Assembly: GCF_003722315.1 (NCBI RefSeq)
Contig: NZ_CP033580.1
Span: 372,001-436,000 of the forward strand
Direction of reading: 5' to 3'
Source of the DNA: Thermoanaerobacter ethanolicus JW 200
GTDB taxonomy: Bacteria; Bacillota; Thermoanaerobacteria; Thermoanaerobacterales; Thermoanaerobacteraceae
Length of the DNA stretch: 64,000 bases
A program made the position numbers and the translations under genes. Below are positions 1,539 to 19,010 of this stretch, one piece after another; within the stretch, counting starts at the first letter, position 1, and each line of letters starts with the position of its first letter. The notes below the pieces were generated by a model. That model searched no databases, was not told the DNA's origin, and saw only the letters and a program-made list of their open reading frames with translations.

Positions 1539-3450
1539 ATCGAGTAGGAGCTGAATAATTATTTTATTCAGCGTCCTCTCACACCACCGTACGTACCGTT
1601 CGGTATACGGCGGTTCATTAGGAATTGTGTACAATTAGATATCTTTGGGATAAACTCTTATAACCTATGCTTTCAAAGTATTTATTTGTAAGAGTCTTAT
1701 TTAGGATTGGGCTATTGGATATTCTTAAGTCACCTTTCCTTGTATTGGCGTATTCCCAGGCTTTTTGTTCTTCTACTCCTAGTTTTACTAAGTTATCATG
1801 CTTCGTTTTTATCTTCTTCCATTGTTTCCATATACATGCCCTTAGTCTTCGCCTTATCCATTCGTCAAGGGTTTTCATTATGCTTTTCGCGTCTGCTAAT
1901 CCAAAATAGTTGACCCATCCTGTTGTTATTTGATTTAGTCTTTTTATTCTGTTTTCCATGCTTATTCCCTTGTTCCGATTGGTTATTTCTCTTACTTTTC
2001 CCTTAAACCTTTTGATGGATTTTTCATGGATTCTTATTCTTACTTCGTTTTCTTTTGTATAGAATGAAAATCCAAGAAATTTTCTTCTCCATGGTCTATC
2101 TACAGCACTTTTTGCTTCGTTGACTTTTAGTTTTAATTTGCTTTCTATGAATTTCTTTATGCTTCTCATTACTCTGTTTCCTGCAGACCTGCTTTTTACA
2201 TATATGTTGCAGTCATCTGCATATCGGCAGAATTTATGCCCTCGTTTCTCAAGTTCTTTGTCTAGTTCGTCCAACATTATGTTTGCTAATAGGGGACTTA
2301 ATGGCCCTCCTTGGGGTGTCCCTTCTTCTGTTGATACTTTGATTCCGTTTATCATTACTCCTGATTCTAGGTATCTTCGTATTAACTTTAGTACTCTTTT
2401 GTCCCCTATCCGCTTTTCTAGTTTGGACATTATTATGTCGTGGTTTACTCTGTCAAAGAATTTTTCTAAGTCCATATCTACAACCCATGTGTATCCTTCA
2501 TTTATGTATGCTTCTGCGGCTTTTATTGCGTCTTTTGCACTGCGTCCTGGTCTGAATCCATAACTGCTATCAGAAAATGTATGGTTGTAGACTTTATTTA
2601 GTATTTGGGCTATTGCTTGTTGTATTAGTCTGTCTAGTACTGTAGGTATTCCTAGTAGTCTTACTCCTCCATCTGGTTTGGGAATTTCTACTCTTCGCAC
2701 TGGTTGTGGTTTGTATTTCCCCTCCAGCAGTTGTTGTTTTATGGTTGCCCAGTTTTCTTTGAGATACGGTAGAAGTTCATCTACTCCCATCCCATCGACT
2801 CCATGGCTTCCTTTATTTGCAACAACGCGCTTGTATGCTGCTTCCATGTTCCCTCGTTCTACTATCATTTCAAGCATCTTGCCGGTATATCTTTGTACCT
2901 CGTTTCTTCCATCTTCCGACGCCGATGATATACTATGCACTTCCGTTGTCTTTTGAAATTCCATTTCTCTATTCAACGGATAGCCTCTTTGTTGAGTTGT
3001 CTGCAGTCTCTGCATATCTTTCGAGTCCATAAGATTTCCAAAACCTCCTAACGTTCGGTCCTTCCTTATCTATTCATGTCTAGATAAGTACTATGACCTC
3101 TGCTGACTTCTCAAGGTTCAGCCATACATCACTGCATGGGTTGTCACTTCAGATTTTACTTCCATGACTTATCCTTGAGACCTCCCCGGGTAAGAACGAT
3201 AACTTTCATCTCATATATCTGCCAGATTTACTGTATGGGATTCGGGTAGTGTTGGACTTCGTTTTGTTACGCAAACTCATCCATCCCAATTCAGCCTCTT
3301 ATCTGGTTCTTGTTCATCAGACCGAGATTTTGCCTTAAGCTTCCTTCAGATTCCACCTCACGATGGACACCCTTGCTCTTGGCTAGTGGTTCCCACTACC
3401 AAGCCCACAGCGGACTTTCACCGCCTAGTTATCGCCCATGCCGGGCGCAC
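1539..3450 (-). mobile_element. Group II intron, copy 1 (class C type), 1912 bp
   Basis: A complete group II intron on the minus strand. It starts with GTGCGCCCGG (read at 3450 downward) and ends with a domain V hairpin (about 1572-1618) and a domain VI hairpin with the tail CTCCTACTCGAT. The A in CCTAC lies 7 bases from the 3' end, as expected for the branch point. It is the same length as copy 2 (6443-8354) with only about a dozen base differences. The 5' exon is the intrinsic terminator of rpsF-ssb-rpsR (3457-3480). Insertion just behind a terminator is the hallmark of bacterial class C introns. Boundaries were set by comparing the two copies and may be off by 1-2 bases. Confidence 0.9.
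1618..3030 (-). CDS. ltrA: Group II intron reverse transcriptase/maturase (copy 1)
   Basis: A 470-residue intron-encoded protein with an RT domain (about residues 50-320) carrying the catalytic CRYADD motif near residue 270 and the GTPQGGPLSPLLANI motif before it. A maturase/thumb (X) domain (about 330-470) follows. No HNH endonuclease domain follows, as is usual for class C introns. It should promote splicing and reverse-transcribe the intron during retrohoming. Compared with copy 2, this protein has Gly/Asp-Leu changes, including DL in place of YW in the motif KG(YW)RISNSP near residue 436. That motif is aromatic in most maturases I recall, so this copy could be impaired. Confidence 0.93.
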   Translation of the reverse strand: MDSKDMQRLQTTQQRGYPLNREMEFQKTTEVHSISSASEDGRNEVQRYTGKMLEMIVERGNMEAAYKRVVANKGSHGVDGMGVDELLPYLKENWATIKQQLLEGKYKPQPVRRVEIPKPDGGVRLLGIPTVLDRLIQQAIAQILNKVYNHTFSDSSYGFRPGRSAKDAIKAAEAYINEGYTWVVDMDLEKFFDRVNHDIIMSKLEKRIGDKRVLKLIRRYLESGVMINGIKVSTEEGTPQGGPLSPLLANIMLDELDKELEKRGHKFCRYADDCNIYVKSRSAGNRVMRSIKKFIESKLKLKVNEAKSAVDRPWRRKFLGFSFYTKENEVRIRIHEKSIKRFKGKVREITNRNKGISMENRIKRLNQITTGWVNYFGLADAKSIMKTLDEWIRRRLRACIWKQWKKIKTKHDNLVKLGVEEQKAWEYANTRKGDLRISNSPILNKTLTNKYFESIGYKSLSQRYLIVHNS

Positions 3451-6462: not shown

Positions 6463-8354
6463 TTATTTTATTCAGCGTCCTCTCACACCACCGTACGTAC
6501 CGTTCGGTATACGGCGGTTCATTAGGAATTGTGTACAATTAGATATCTTTGGGATAAACTCTTATAACCTATGCTTTCAAAGTATTTATTTGTAAGAGTC
6601 TTATTTAGGATTGGGCTATTGGATATTCTCCAGTAGCCTTTCCTTGTATTGGCGTATTCCCAGGCTTTTTGTTCTTCTACTCCTAGTTTTACTAAGTTAT
6701 CATGCTTCGTTTTTATCTTCTTCCATTGTTTCCATATACATGCCCTTAGTCTTCGCCTTATCCATTCGTCAAGGGTTTTCATTATGCTTTTCGCGTCTGC
6801 TAATCCAAAATAGTTGACCCATCCTGTTGTTATTTGATTTAGTCTTTTTATTCTGTTTTCCATGCTTATTCCCTTGTTCCGATTGGTTATTTCTCTTACT
6901 TTTTCCTTAAACCTTTTGATGGATTTTTCATGGATTCTTATTCTTACTTCGTTTTCTTTTGTATAGAATGAAAATCCAAGAAATTTTCTTCTCCATGGTC
7001 TATCTACAGCACTTTTTGCTTCGTTGACTTTTAGTTTTAATTTGCTTTCTATGAATTTCTTTATGCTTCTCATTACTCTGTTTCCTGCAGACCTGCTTTT
7101 TACATATATGTTGCAGTCATCTGCATATCGGCAGAATTTATGCCCTCGTTTCTCAAGTTCTTTGTCTAGTTCGTCCAACATTATGTTTGCTAATAGGGGA
7201 CTTAATGGCCCTCCTTGGGGTGTCCCTTCTTCTGTTGATACTTTGATTCCGTTTATCATTACTCCTGATTCTAGGTATCTTCGTATTAACTTTAGTACTC
7301 TTTTGTCCCCTATCCGCTTTTCTAGTTTGGACATTATTATGTCGTGGTTTACTCTGTCAAAGAATTTTTCTAAGTCCATATCTACAACCCATGTGTATCC
7401 TTCATTTATGTATGCTTCTGCGGCTTTTATTGCGTCTTTTGCACTGCGTCCTGGTCTGAATCCATAACTGCTATCAGAAAATGTATGGTTGTAGACTTTA
7501 TTTAGTATTTGGGCTATTGCTTGTTGTATTAGTCTGTCTAGTACTGTAGGTATTCCTAGTAGTCTTACTCCTCCATCTGGTTTGGGAATTTCTACTCTTC
7601 GCACTGGTTGTGGTTTGTATTTCCCCTCCAGCAGTTGTTGTTTTATGGTTGCCCAGTTTTCTTTGAGATACGGTAGAAGTTCATCTACTTCCATCCCATC
7701 GACTCCATGGCTTCCTTTATTTGCAACAACGCGCTTGTATGCTGCTTCCATGTTCCTTCGTTCTACTATCATTTCAAGCATCTTGCTGGTATATCTTTGT
7801 ACTTCGTTTCTTCCATCTTCCGACGCCGATGATATACTATGCACTTCCGTTGTCTTTTGAAATTCCATTTCTCTATTCAACGGATAGCCTCTTTGTTGAG
7901 TTGTCTGCAGTCTCTGCATATCTTTCGAGTCCATAAGATTTCCAAAACCTCCTAACGTTCGGTCCTTCCTTATCTATTCATGTCTAGATAAGTACTATGA
8001 CCTCTGCTGACTTCTCAAGGTTCAGCCATACATCACTGCATGGGTTGTCACTTCAGATTTTACTTCCATGACTTATCCTTGAGACCTCCCCGGGTAAGAA
8101 CGATAACTTTCATCTCATATATCTGCCAGATTTACTGTATGGGATTCGGGTAGTGTTGGACTTCGTTTTGTTACGCAAACTCATCCACCCCAATTCAGCC
8201 TCTTATCTGGTTCTTGTTCATCAGACCGAGATTTTGCCTTAAGCTTCCTTCAGATTCCACCTCACGATGGACACCCTTGCTCTTGGCTAGTGGTTCCCAC
8301 TACCAAGCCCACAGCGGACTTTCACCGCCTAGTTATCGCCCATGCCGGGCGCAC
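6443..8354 (-). mobile_element. Group II intron, copy 2 (class C type), 1912 bp
   Basis: A second full intron, the same length and orientation as copy 1 and about 99% identical by eye. The 5' end GTGCGCCCGG is at 8354 and the 3' end CTACTCGAT at 6443. Its 5' exon is the terminator of cphA (8362-8384), again the class C preference. Its 3' flank is the end of the convergent yyaC gene. The maturase gene (6522-7934) is intact. Confidence 0.9.
6522..7934 (-). CDS. ltrA: Group II intron reverse transcriptase/maturase (copy 2)
   Basis: 470 residues with the same architecture as copy 1: RT domain with CRYADD and GTPQGGPLSPLL, then the X/thumb domain, and no HNH nuclease. It keeps the aromatic KGYWRISNSP motif near residue 436 that copy 1 lacks. 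It also has Ser, Arg, Glu and Glu where copy 1 has Gly near residues 50, 60, 81 and 344. An AGGAGG site lies 13 bases before the ATG. This copy is the better candidate for an active element and could act in trans on copy 1. Confidence 0.94.
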   Translation of the reverse strand: MDSKDMQRLQTTQQRGYPLNREMEFQKTTEVHSISSASEDGRNEVQRYTSKMLEMIVERRNMEAAYKRVVANKGSHGVDGMEVDELLPYLKENWATIKQQLLEGKYKPQPVRRVEIPKPDGGVRLLGIPTVLDRLIQQAIAQILNKVYNHTFSDSSYGFRPGRSAKDAIKAAEAYINEGYTWVVDMDLEKFFDRVNHDIIMSKLEKRIGDKRVLKLIRRYLESGVMINGIKVSTEEGTPQGGPLSPLLANIMLDELDKELEKRGHKFCRYADDCNIYVKSRSAGNRVMRSIKKFIESKLKLKVNEAKSAVDRPWRRKFLGFSFYTKENEVRIRIHEKSIKRFKEKVREITNRNKGISMENRIKRLNQITTGWVNYFGLADAKSIMKTLDEWIRRRLRACIWKQWKKIKTKHDNLVKLGVEEQKAWEYANTRKGYWRISNSPILNKTLTNKYFESIGYKSLSQRYLIVHNS

Positions 8355-17397: not shown

Positions 17398-17859
17398 TTA
17401 TAAAAAAGTCTCAGGAATAGGAATAAGACAATTGAAAAAATCTTTTTGTTGTATGAGTTCCGCCAATTTTTGAGGGTAAACTTGATAGTTTTTCAAATCC
17501 TTAAGATCAACCCATTTTACTTCTTTTAAAACCTGTTTCTCTTTAGGTAATTCAGGGTCACTTCCTAAGGTCAATTTTCCCCCAATAATAGAGGAATAAA
17601 AATATGTTACATAGTAAATATCATATTCTTGAATATAACACACTCCGTTCAACTTAATGTCATAGCCTGTTTCTTCTTTACATTCTCTTATAGCGGCAAC
17701 TGCTACTGATTCATTTTCTTCTACCCTACCTCCTGGAAAAACCCATGCTACTTCCTCCCCCTCTTGATGTTTTACTAAAAGAACTTTTCCTTTTTCAACA
17801 ATGACAACTCTCGCAACTAAAAAGCTCGCTCTAAATTTTAACATTTTTTCTTCCCTCAT
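17398..17859 (-). CDS. NUDIX hydrolase
   Basis: 153 residues with a full Nudix box, GGRVEENESV...AIRECKEETGY (about residues 42-64), matching GX5EX7REUXEEXGU. It hydrolyses a nucleoside diphosphate linked to another group; the substrate is unknown. The start follows a weak AGGAATGAGGGAA segment. It stands alone between noc and the rsmG operon, downstream of the terminator at 17911. Confidence 0.92.
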   Translation of the reverse strand: MREEKMLKFRASFLVARVVIVEKGKVLLVKHQEGEEVAWVFPGGRVEENESVAVAAIRECKEETGYDIKLNGVCYIQEYDIYYVTYFYSSIIGGKLTLGSDPELPKEKQVLKEVKWVDLKDLKNYQVYPQKLAELIQQKDFFNCLIPIPETFL

Positions 17860-17910: not shown

Positions 17911-17933
17911 AAAAGAACAGTCTAACCTGTTCT
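17911..17933 (-). terminator. Intrinsic terminator behind the structured element / rsmG operon
   Basis: Stem AGAACAG / CTGTTCT, 6-base loop, followed on the minus strand by TTTTTTATTTTTAT. It ends minus-strand transcripts that have passed through 18288-17960. Confidence 0.85.
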
Positions 17934-17959
17934 CAGTTTGTTGACAAAGTTCTATTTTT

Positions 17960-18229
17960 GTTGGCATTTTGCATCGTTTGCTCCGGTAACATCACAGACT
18001 AAACTAGCGCTCGGCCTCGGACTCAGGCGGGGCTTCTGCGTCAGCGGCATCCTTTCCTCAGGTGCCCGCCTCCGCCCTCACAAGGCTGCGGCTCCGCCGA
18101 CCTCTCTCTGTCTCGCTAAGTTTCCCGGCACTCAACTGAACACGCTAGTCCTCTCTCTTATTACTTTTTTCTAACATGTTTAAGTTGAATGCCGGGCTGT
18201 TAAGTCACTCACTTATGCAAAATGCCAAC
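17960..18229 (-). ncRNA. 270-bp GC-rich structured element with 15-bp terminal inverted repeats (unknown)
   Basis: A sharply GC-rich block in an AT-rich neighbourhood, with no gene I can support. Its ends are a perfect inverted repeat (GTTGGCATTTTGCAT / ATGCAAAATGCCAAC). Inside are a 14-bp helix (18124-18137 with 18183-18196), a 9-bp bulged helix (AAACT-AGCG / CGCTAGTTT), an enclosed AGGCGGG / CCCGCCT helix and a CGGC-GGA-GCCG hairpin. In the 14-bp helix one pair is U-G on the minus strand but a C-A mismatch on the plus strand, which favours a minus-strand RNA. An intrinsic terminator follows on that strand. It could be a non-coding RNA, a structured 3' UTR of rsmG-mnmG-mnmE, or a non-autonomous mobile element. 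I do not recognise it. A HEARO/omega-RNA-like identity was considered but not established. Confidence 0.6.
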
Positions 18230-18287
18230 ATATCATAAAGACATTACACTTTTATGCGTAAAGTGCATTGATGACAAACTTCTAACT

Positions 18288-19010
18288 TCACAAAGGAGAC
18301 CTTTTTATAGCATTGGCCTTTCTGGGATATTTCAGAGGACAGTTATCTCCTTTTCTTATAATTATCAAATGATGAAGTATATCACTAAAAGGAAGTCTGA
18401 TTTGCTTTACCTCCTCAATTTCACCTTTTAACTCCTTTAAAGCTTTTTGACTGCTTTTTATTTCTTCCTCAACTTCTCTTCCTTTTAAAGCAATAAAATA
18501 CCCACCTACTTGTACAAAAGGAAGAGTATATTCCAATAAAACATTTAAAGGTGCAACAGCTCTTGCCACAGATAAATCAAATTGTTCTCTATATTTTATG
18601 TCTTTTCCTATATCTTCTGCTCTTCCATGAATTAATTCTATTTCATTTATACCCAATTTATTTATAACCTCTTCTAAAAAAGTAATTCTTTTTTTAGAAG
18701 CGTCTAAAAGAGTAGCTTTTAATTTAGGAAACACAATTTTTAAAGGAATAGAAGGAAAACCAGCCCCTGTACCAACGTCTATAATTTTTTCGTCCCCTTT
18801 TATTTTCCCACTCTTAACCACAGATAAGCTATCTAATAAATGCTTAATCACAACTTCACTTTCTTCTGTAATTGCCGTTAAATTCATCTTCTGATTCCAT
18901 TCCAATAAAAGAGCATAATATTTTTGGAAATGTTCCACATGGAACATTTCCAAAAATATACCCCACTCTTTAGCGCCCTCAATTAGCATATCAACCGATT
19001 TGTTCTTCAT
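18288..19010 (-). CDS. rsmG: 16S rRNA (guanine-527-N7) methyltransferase RsmG/GidB
   Basis: 240 residues. SAM-binding motifs are [17 protein letters not shown] (about 80-96), [15 protein letters not shown] and a later [18 protein letters not shown]. It methylates G527 of 16S rRNA. It overlaps the 3' end of mnmG by 20 bases, so translation is coupled. Residues near 21-27 (MFHVEHF) are encoded by an embedded parS-like palindrome. Last gene of the mnmE-mnmG-rsmG order seen near oriC in many bacteria. Confidence 0.97.
18918..18959. repeat. 42-bp palindrome inside rsmG
   Basis: Two perfect 20-bp arms starting ATATTTTTGGAAATGTTCCA are separated by CA. The core is the parS-like 16-mer. Perfect symmetry over 40 positions within a coding sequence is far beyond what parS binding alone requires. 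Confidence 0.9.
18931..18946. promoter_or_regulatory. parS-like site inside rsmG
   Basis: TGTTCCACATGGAACA, identical to the site at 16448. On the rsmG coding strand the palindrome with flanks encodes MFHVEH, a peptide I recall as a common by-product of parS sites in rsmG or nearby frames. Confidence 0.8.

Follow-up and report, generated by a model that had tools for sequence, protein, structure and literature searches.

The 270-bp GC-rich feature that lies behind rsmG in Thermoanaerobacter ethanolicus JW 200 raises a simple question: is it a structured RNA, or is it a mobile element? These two readings had been offered as alternatives in a preliminary description made from the sequence of the window (the whole stretch of 64,000 nucleotides analysed here, positions 372,001 to 436,000 of contig NZ_CP033580.1), and both are right together: the feature is a degraded IS1182 MITE that encloses an RNA of the TwoAYGGAY type.

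The element behind rsmG and its family

The element lies between rsmG, the gene for a 16S rRNA methyltransferase (18288-19010, minus strand; named from its translation and in the preliminary description), which is upstream in the RNA sense, and a gene for a MutT-like NUDIX hydrolase (17398-17859, minus strand; named from its translated sequence), which is downstream. Comparison with L009 and L010, which retain both ends, identifies it as a degraded MITE copy that occupies 17934-18240 of the minus strand. Its right terminus, CAGTTTGTTGACAAA, is found at 17934-17948 and touches an intrinsic-terminator hairpin (AGAACAGGTTAGACTGTTCT, with a T run after it; 17914-17933, minus strand), the downstream copy of the presumed target hairpin, while the left terminus, CAGACTGTAGACAAA, is eroded. 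In the intact copies a terminator hairpin adjoins the element in this same layout. That the element follows rsmG and precedes a terminator on the minus strand had been read correctly, and the feature was where it had been placed, but its bounds were too narrow: the true start is 17934, and homology to intact copies stops only at about 18240.

The perfect inverted ends, first given as 15 bp, are real and measure 16 bp. They are the arms of a basal helix, which is also an inner inverted repeat (ATGCAAAATGCCAACA, the 3' arm, 17959-17974, and TGTTGGCATTTTGCAT, the 5' arm, 18215-18230, both on the minus strand); the arms are 100% complementary, and 7 of their pairs change on both sides across copies. 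The 14-bp internal helix was also found (18124-18137 with 18183-18196). The U-G pair that had been taken as a sign of selection on an RNA does exist, but most other copies have a plain C-G there, so it is a single base change in the window copy and, by itself, weak evidence of selection.

Within the element, our covariance model R1 matches the TwoAYGGAY-related RNA at 17974-18145 on the minus strand, with 46.7 bits (E 3e-11). The conserved core, formed by the AAACTTAGC ... GCTAGTTT helix and all that it encloses (18001-18123, minus strand), holds two apical hairpins: H1 (18069-18089, minus strand), whose GGA loop is gone in this copy (GCC-UUGUGA-GGGC), and H2 (18046-18057, minus strand), whose loop GGA is kept at 18050-18052. 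An extra hairpin module, CCCGGCAYTCAA...TTGAGTGCCGGG (18124-18196, minus strand), is optional, some copies having it and others not. The folding energy is -115.4 kcal/mol for the minus strand, where shuffled sequences average -78.9 (z -7.4, with 0 of 200 shuffles as stable), and -95.0 kcal/mol for the plus strand (z -5.8). On the rsmG side lies another hairpin (CACTTTACGCATAAAAGTG, 18247-18265, minus strand), which is unlike the downstream one, and this mismatch makes a target duplication unrecognisable in so old a copy. Having lost one GGA loop, the left terminus and the target duplication, the window copy may be dead.

The MITE-like character suspected at the outset is borne out by the rest of the genome, which holds 37 matches at the DNA level and 35 by covariance model; the covariance-model copies number 38 in T. 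wiegelii Rt8.B1 (G061), and 86 and 90 in two relatives. In the RNA sense, the copies of the family start with CAGACTGTAGACAAA and finish with TTTGTCAACAAACTG, and complete ones measure 261-275 bp, or 323-333 bp with the extra hairpin module (CCCGGCACTCAA...TTGAGTGCCGGG). They are short, multicopy and without a long ORF, and carry terminal inverted repeats. The same genome contains eight elements of 1560-1566 bp that have the same ends as the MITE and one transposase gene, whose product belongs to the IS1182 family (NCBIfam NF033551, 492.3 bits, cut-off 270). These autonomous copies are without the RNA. The exact end pattern occurs almost exclusively in Thermoanaerobacter. Taken alone, the mobile-element part of our reading is well supported, and we regard it as nearly certain. 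The optional module sits at one fixed place of the RNA (window 18124-18196, L015, L016, L018, L019, L020, L022, L023 and L031), and in L018-L020 its loop is the reverse complement of that in L015-L016, as though the module were able to invert. Bacterial MITEs, as presented in the available text of a study of Coxiella (PMC5896051) and of a review (PMC10969869), are likewise short, non-coding and multicopy, with terminal inverted repeats and a parental IS in the genome; measured against those accounts, our element differs in having as its interior a conserved RNA that has homologues in a named RNA family and is found on unrelated ends elsewhere.

The locus itself speaks to a possible role in cis, in which the element, as part of a read-through mRNA, would form a stable 3'-UTR structure before the terminator and protect or tune the mRNA of the upstream gene. 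Copies do lie between a stop codon and a terminator, as in the window, where rsmG, element and terminator share one strand, and the upstream copy of the hairpin is without a T run after insertion; as the insertion has cost it this T run, read-through into the element is expected. The gap between rsmG and the NUDIX gene holds R1-detectable copies in G061, G006, G008, G001, G003, G002, G005 and G007, and no R1-detectable copy in G004; G008 has two copies in opposite orientation, and those of G001 and G003 are inverted. Inversion is also seen at a glycerate-kinase gap in the sister genus, and a role in the mRNA would hardly tolerate inverted copies at the same locus, which makes this explanation quite improbable. 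For two reasons, multiplicity and inversion, the feature is not the single conserved 3'-UTR RNA of rsmG that had been considered. The gap is either old or repeatedly used, which explains why the window copy scores low and has lost its target duplication.

Insertion into terminator hairpins

On either side of an intact MITE copy stands the same palindrome, 17-40 bp long, which corresponds to a complete intrinsic-terminator stem-loop. At many copies these duplications are exact palindromes; at older ones they have diverged or are shorter. The eight full-length IS copies are likewise flanked by a duplicated hairpin, of 20-32 bp. When the flanks of eight insertions were joined with one hairpin and matched against relatives, all 8 of the 8 sites were contiguous there with a single hairpin, as exemplified by a 99% match over the junction in G061 and G002. 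Duplicated hairpins at the insertions and single-hairpin empty sites in relatives mean that insertion duplicates the hairpin. Both target duplication and empty sites, as expected of a MITE, are thus found at the level of the family, the duplication being unrecognisable in the window copy.

Relatives of IS1182 act on DNA stem-loops (PMC5678879). IS1272, with a transposase of the same family, also targets a palindrome and not a sequence; in its case the stem-loop is replaced without duplication, and duplication of the whole stem-loop had been drawn as an alternative pathway, a possibility only (PMC5678879). The elements described here, by contrast, target terminator hairpins and show precisely this outcome, duplication of the whole stem-loop by an IS1182-type element. 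As for the mechanism, it is highly likely that the IS1182 transposase would attack the feet of the extruded hairpin, so that the whole stem-loop would become the target duplication.

Other elements use these sites too. Group II introns, in tens of copies, sit directly behind terminators (window 3058-3367 and 7962-8271, minus strand; L037 2363-2672; the flank of L025, G000:C1:1116933-1117062), and in two places (1155082-1155347 and 1116637-1116901) one and the same terminator has both a MITE and a group II intron. Terminators look like a landing pad common to two unrelated mobile elements. At L082 (1149-1278; G000:C1:2485948-2486077) we have identified an internally deleted MITE of 130 bp that keeps both ends and lies between two similar hairpins; it has no GGA hairpins, which may mean that movement does not need the RNA core.

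A structured RNA related to TwoAYGGAY

The preliminary description had named several loci with covarying helices as the mark of a mobile RNA element, and such loci exist: a structured RNA is present on the minus strand, and its helices covary at many loci. An alignment of 26 copies from Thermoanaerobacter and its sister genus (A2) fits one structure of 57 pairs, with 96.1% of cells paired compared with 32-41% when the 3' sides are slid. Changes on both sides occur at 14 pairs against 8.7 +/- 1.6 in shuffled alignments (0 of 500 shuffles reach 14), the cells changed on both sides number 65 against 18.6, and the covariation score lies above all 500 shuffles, figures to be read with the structure derived from one of the aligned sequences and with relatedness inflating the shuffle comparison; the slid control, in which relatedness is kept, gives 0-4 both-side-changed pairs. 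In a second alignment (A1), both partners vary at 15 of the 50 predicted pairs, and 7 of these 15 belong to the basal helix. In the fold, a long basal rod leads to a closing stem that encloses two apical hairpins. GGA is invariant in both apical loops of all 26 A2 copies, the window copy keeping the second GGA loop only, and the stem beneath the GGA loops varies (GGC/GCC, GAC/GUC and others). H1 reads GCCGAAGCC...GGCGAAGGC, which would be compatible with tandem G-A pairs, and tandem G-A pairs in a hairpin stem are a feature of TwoAYGGAY (PMC4333381). On its 3' side, H2 has the variant CACCUGACGUAGG in place of GAUUGUGCCCGG in L018, L019, L020, L023, L011 and L014, the window copy being similar; this variant breaks the outer stem of H2 and could form a small hairpin of its own, as an alternative RNA subtype.

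An Rfam search of the window element gave no match at the gathering score, and the window copy does not match TwoAYGGAY (RF01731; Weinberg et al. 2010, PMC2864571) even at E 10. Other copies of the same genome match the full RF01731 model on the predicted strand when searched by E-value (37.8, 31.2 and 30.6 bits), the best score in this genome being 40.1 bits; no copy seen in the genus reaches the gathering cut-off of 43, which is why the RNA is not filed as a member of the family. RF01731 matches occur in 20 of 61 relative genomes and in 0 of 14 control genomes, with 29 of up to 59.9 bits in G019, a genome of a different family in the same order, and homologues in other families pass the cut-off with 59.9 and 87.1 bits. 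Model R1 was built from copies of Thermoanaerobacter and the sister genus, without any cut-off-passing RF01731 locus. It finds the cut-off-passing loci of other families (E 4.5e-14 to 1e-4) and 14 further loci, distant families included (E <= 2.4e-6), and since it does so independently, the two RNAs can be considered homologous. Judged from these reciprocal matches, the RNA of the element is very probably a divergent branch of TwoAYGGAY, not the wholly new RNA first proposed. What is shared comprises paired GGA-loop hairpins in a closing stem, a long basal helix and full-length, reciprocal covariance-model matches on the predicted strand: two AYGGAY-type loop hairpins are present, the strict AYGGAY often being relaxed to ANGGAN, both stand inside a common stem on the long basal helix, and the alignments span model positions 1-168. 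What differs are the scores below the cut-off (40.1 against 43), outer stems with many mismatches, the optional hairpin module and the placement in an IS1182 MITE. Mobility of TwoAYGGAY is not described in the literature that we found mentioning the family.

The RNA is carried on different ends. IS1182-type ends with terminator duplication occur throughout the genus and, outside its family, in G153, where the transposase loci L291 and L296 did not show the IS1182-type ends of its copies. In T. ethanolicus itself, L011 and L013 carry the ends GTGTGTGTMAAA and 9-bp duplications (8/9 and 9/9), a length that fits derivation from an IS256-type element; a search for an autonomous partner with these ends found none. 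Copies in G019 and G021 have other ends again and 8-bp duplications, matching 8/8 twice and 7/8 four times when fitted with some freedom of position, the remainder beyond these six being indistinct, and G019 gave no IS1182 transposase match. In five species of the sister genus there is a single copy without IS1182 ends beside a glycerate-kinase gene (named from its translation), with two species sharing one orientation and the other three having the opposite one (L124 and L129 as opposed to L125, L126 and L127), which is an inversion across the inverted ends of the element. The constant part is the RNA, not the ends, of which there are at least three transposon kinds. Some further loci belong here. 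L092 (2232-2300), L093 (1590-1650) and L094 (1500-1560) have GTSTGTGTMAAA-type ends and an inner TTTTGCA-like repeat without an R1 match, and are relatives of the second end type that have decayed or lack the RNA; in G275 (L156, L157 and L159) TwoAYGGAY copies lie between GAGTCACGGGGACGGTTCT...AACCGTCCCCGTGACTC inverted repeats, yet another kind of end; and in L118 (G038) two RF01731/R1 RNAs stand in tandem at a distance of about 290 bp, and direct repeats CATGGCCGAACAAGTATAATGCGACCCTC lie between the two and next to them.

These observations bear on two other explanations. MITE interiors are often non-coding, and ours could be that of an ordinary MITE, a foldback DNA that aids transposition or a passive remnant, with no functional transcript and with its RNA-like conservation arising only because the transposase needs DNA hairpins. 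That the basal helix overlaps the inner inverted repeats would fit, as would the stem-loop habit of the IS1182 relatives (PMC5678879) and the 130-bp element of L082, which still lies within a duplicated hairpin without its GGA hairpins. However, the branched interior, with two GGA hairpins in a closing stem, is kept where the ends differ in type, is found singly and lacks IS1182 ends in five sister-genus species, is present in many copies in G019, which has no IS1182 transposase match, and has loops that are invariant while the stems vary; we therefore hold the ordinary-MITE explanation to be unlikely. Alternatively, the RNA could serve the transposon, either as a guide or assembly RNA for the transposase or as a splicing or ribozyme RNA that renders insertions harmless. 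The repeated joining of the RNA core to several kinds of transposon ends speaks for such a service, and so does the precedent of the IStrons, a group I intron coupled to an IS, in which, in the available text of PMC4227781, a structured RNA is likewise coupled to transposon ends. In contrast to what that text describes, our element has no intron match, its RNA lies in terminators and not in genes, and the autonomous IS lacks the RNA. Neither HEARO (RF02033) nor the IS605-orfB RNA families have an Rfam match in the element, the former at any threshold tried, so the suspected likeness to HEARO/omega RNA is confined to a GC-rich structure in a mobile element. A group I/II intron core gave no match in the element either, intron matches falling only outside the elements. 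With autonomous IS1182 copies that do without the RNA, and single-copy orthologues that do without such ends, a service to the transposon is very improbable. Matches to RatA, plant microRNAs and snoRNAs at high E-value were dismissed as chance.

Predicted transcription, CsrA and the spread of the RNA

Our preferred reading is that of a transposon-dispersed RNA gene, and most likely a CsrA-binding one, expression and CsrA binding being inferred. The left end of the autonomous IS reads TTGACA-17-TATTAT/TATGAT, and would make a good sigma-70-type promoter for the transposase. That of the MITE keeps T(A/T)GACA-17-TATTTT, with the exact 17-bp spacing in 53 of 60 distinct ends, which are related and not independent. 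This conservation could also reflect transposase binding or the basal helix, because the -10-like TATTTT is a weak box situated within the inner inverted repeat. It is rather probable that transcription would start from this left end, where TAGACA-17-TATTTT stands in place of the TTGACA-17-TATTAT of the IS. The predicted start falls just inside the inner inverted repeat, directly past TATTTTGCATAA and close to the 5' end of the core, and the downstream duplicated host hairpin with its T run would terminate the RNA, so that every landing site would supply a terminator.

The csrA gene is present in the T. ethanolicus genome and common in the phylum. It is found in 39 of 40 RF01731-positive genomes and in 246 of 358 negative ones (Fisher p 1.3e-5), the exception, G213, being 94% complete with no csrA seen. 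Counted by family, which is the only way in which phylogeny was handled (141 families, taken from labels), the figures are 21/21 with RF01731 and 83/120 without (p 9e-4). Some copies of the element contain ACAAGGAUGU, the core of the CsrA SELEX consensus. CsrA had been proposed as the partner of TwoAYGGAY (PMC4333381), and the csrA association supports CsrA binding but does not establish it. The two apical GGA loops may bind CsrA, and many copies might then act jointly as a dispersed CsrA-titrating RNA; numbers of 86-90 copies in two genomes make such a role plausible, and we propose CsrA titration tentatively. The model would work like the CsrA-sequestering sRNAs of the CsrB/RsmZ type, no homology being claimed: these, too, have GGA in several hairpin loops per RNA, but there many loops stand on one RNA, whereas here two conserved loops would be multiplied by many gene copies and CsrA binding is putative. 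For the whole chain, including the promoter in the left end, the duplicated terminator and at least a function at the level of RNA, we estimate a probability of roughly 0.55.

For the TwoAYGGAY family, an orphan since 2010, these findings together provide a way of spreading and a function that can be tested. A wider reading, which we consider doubtful, would be that TwoAYGGAY-type RNAs are generally mobile, a CsrA-binding RNA gene having been repeatedly taken up by different transposons (IS1182-type, 9-bp-duplication type and 8-bp-duplication type), with transposon copy number setting the dose of a regulator sponge; if true, terminator-targeting insertion would provide every copy with a 3' end from the outset. 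The elements described here also suggest how a mobile RNA gene may land harmlessly and yet gain a terminator, namely through insertion into terminators that are duplicated in the process.
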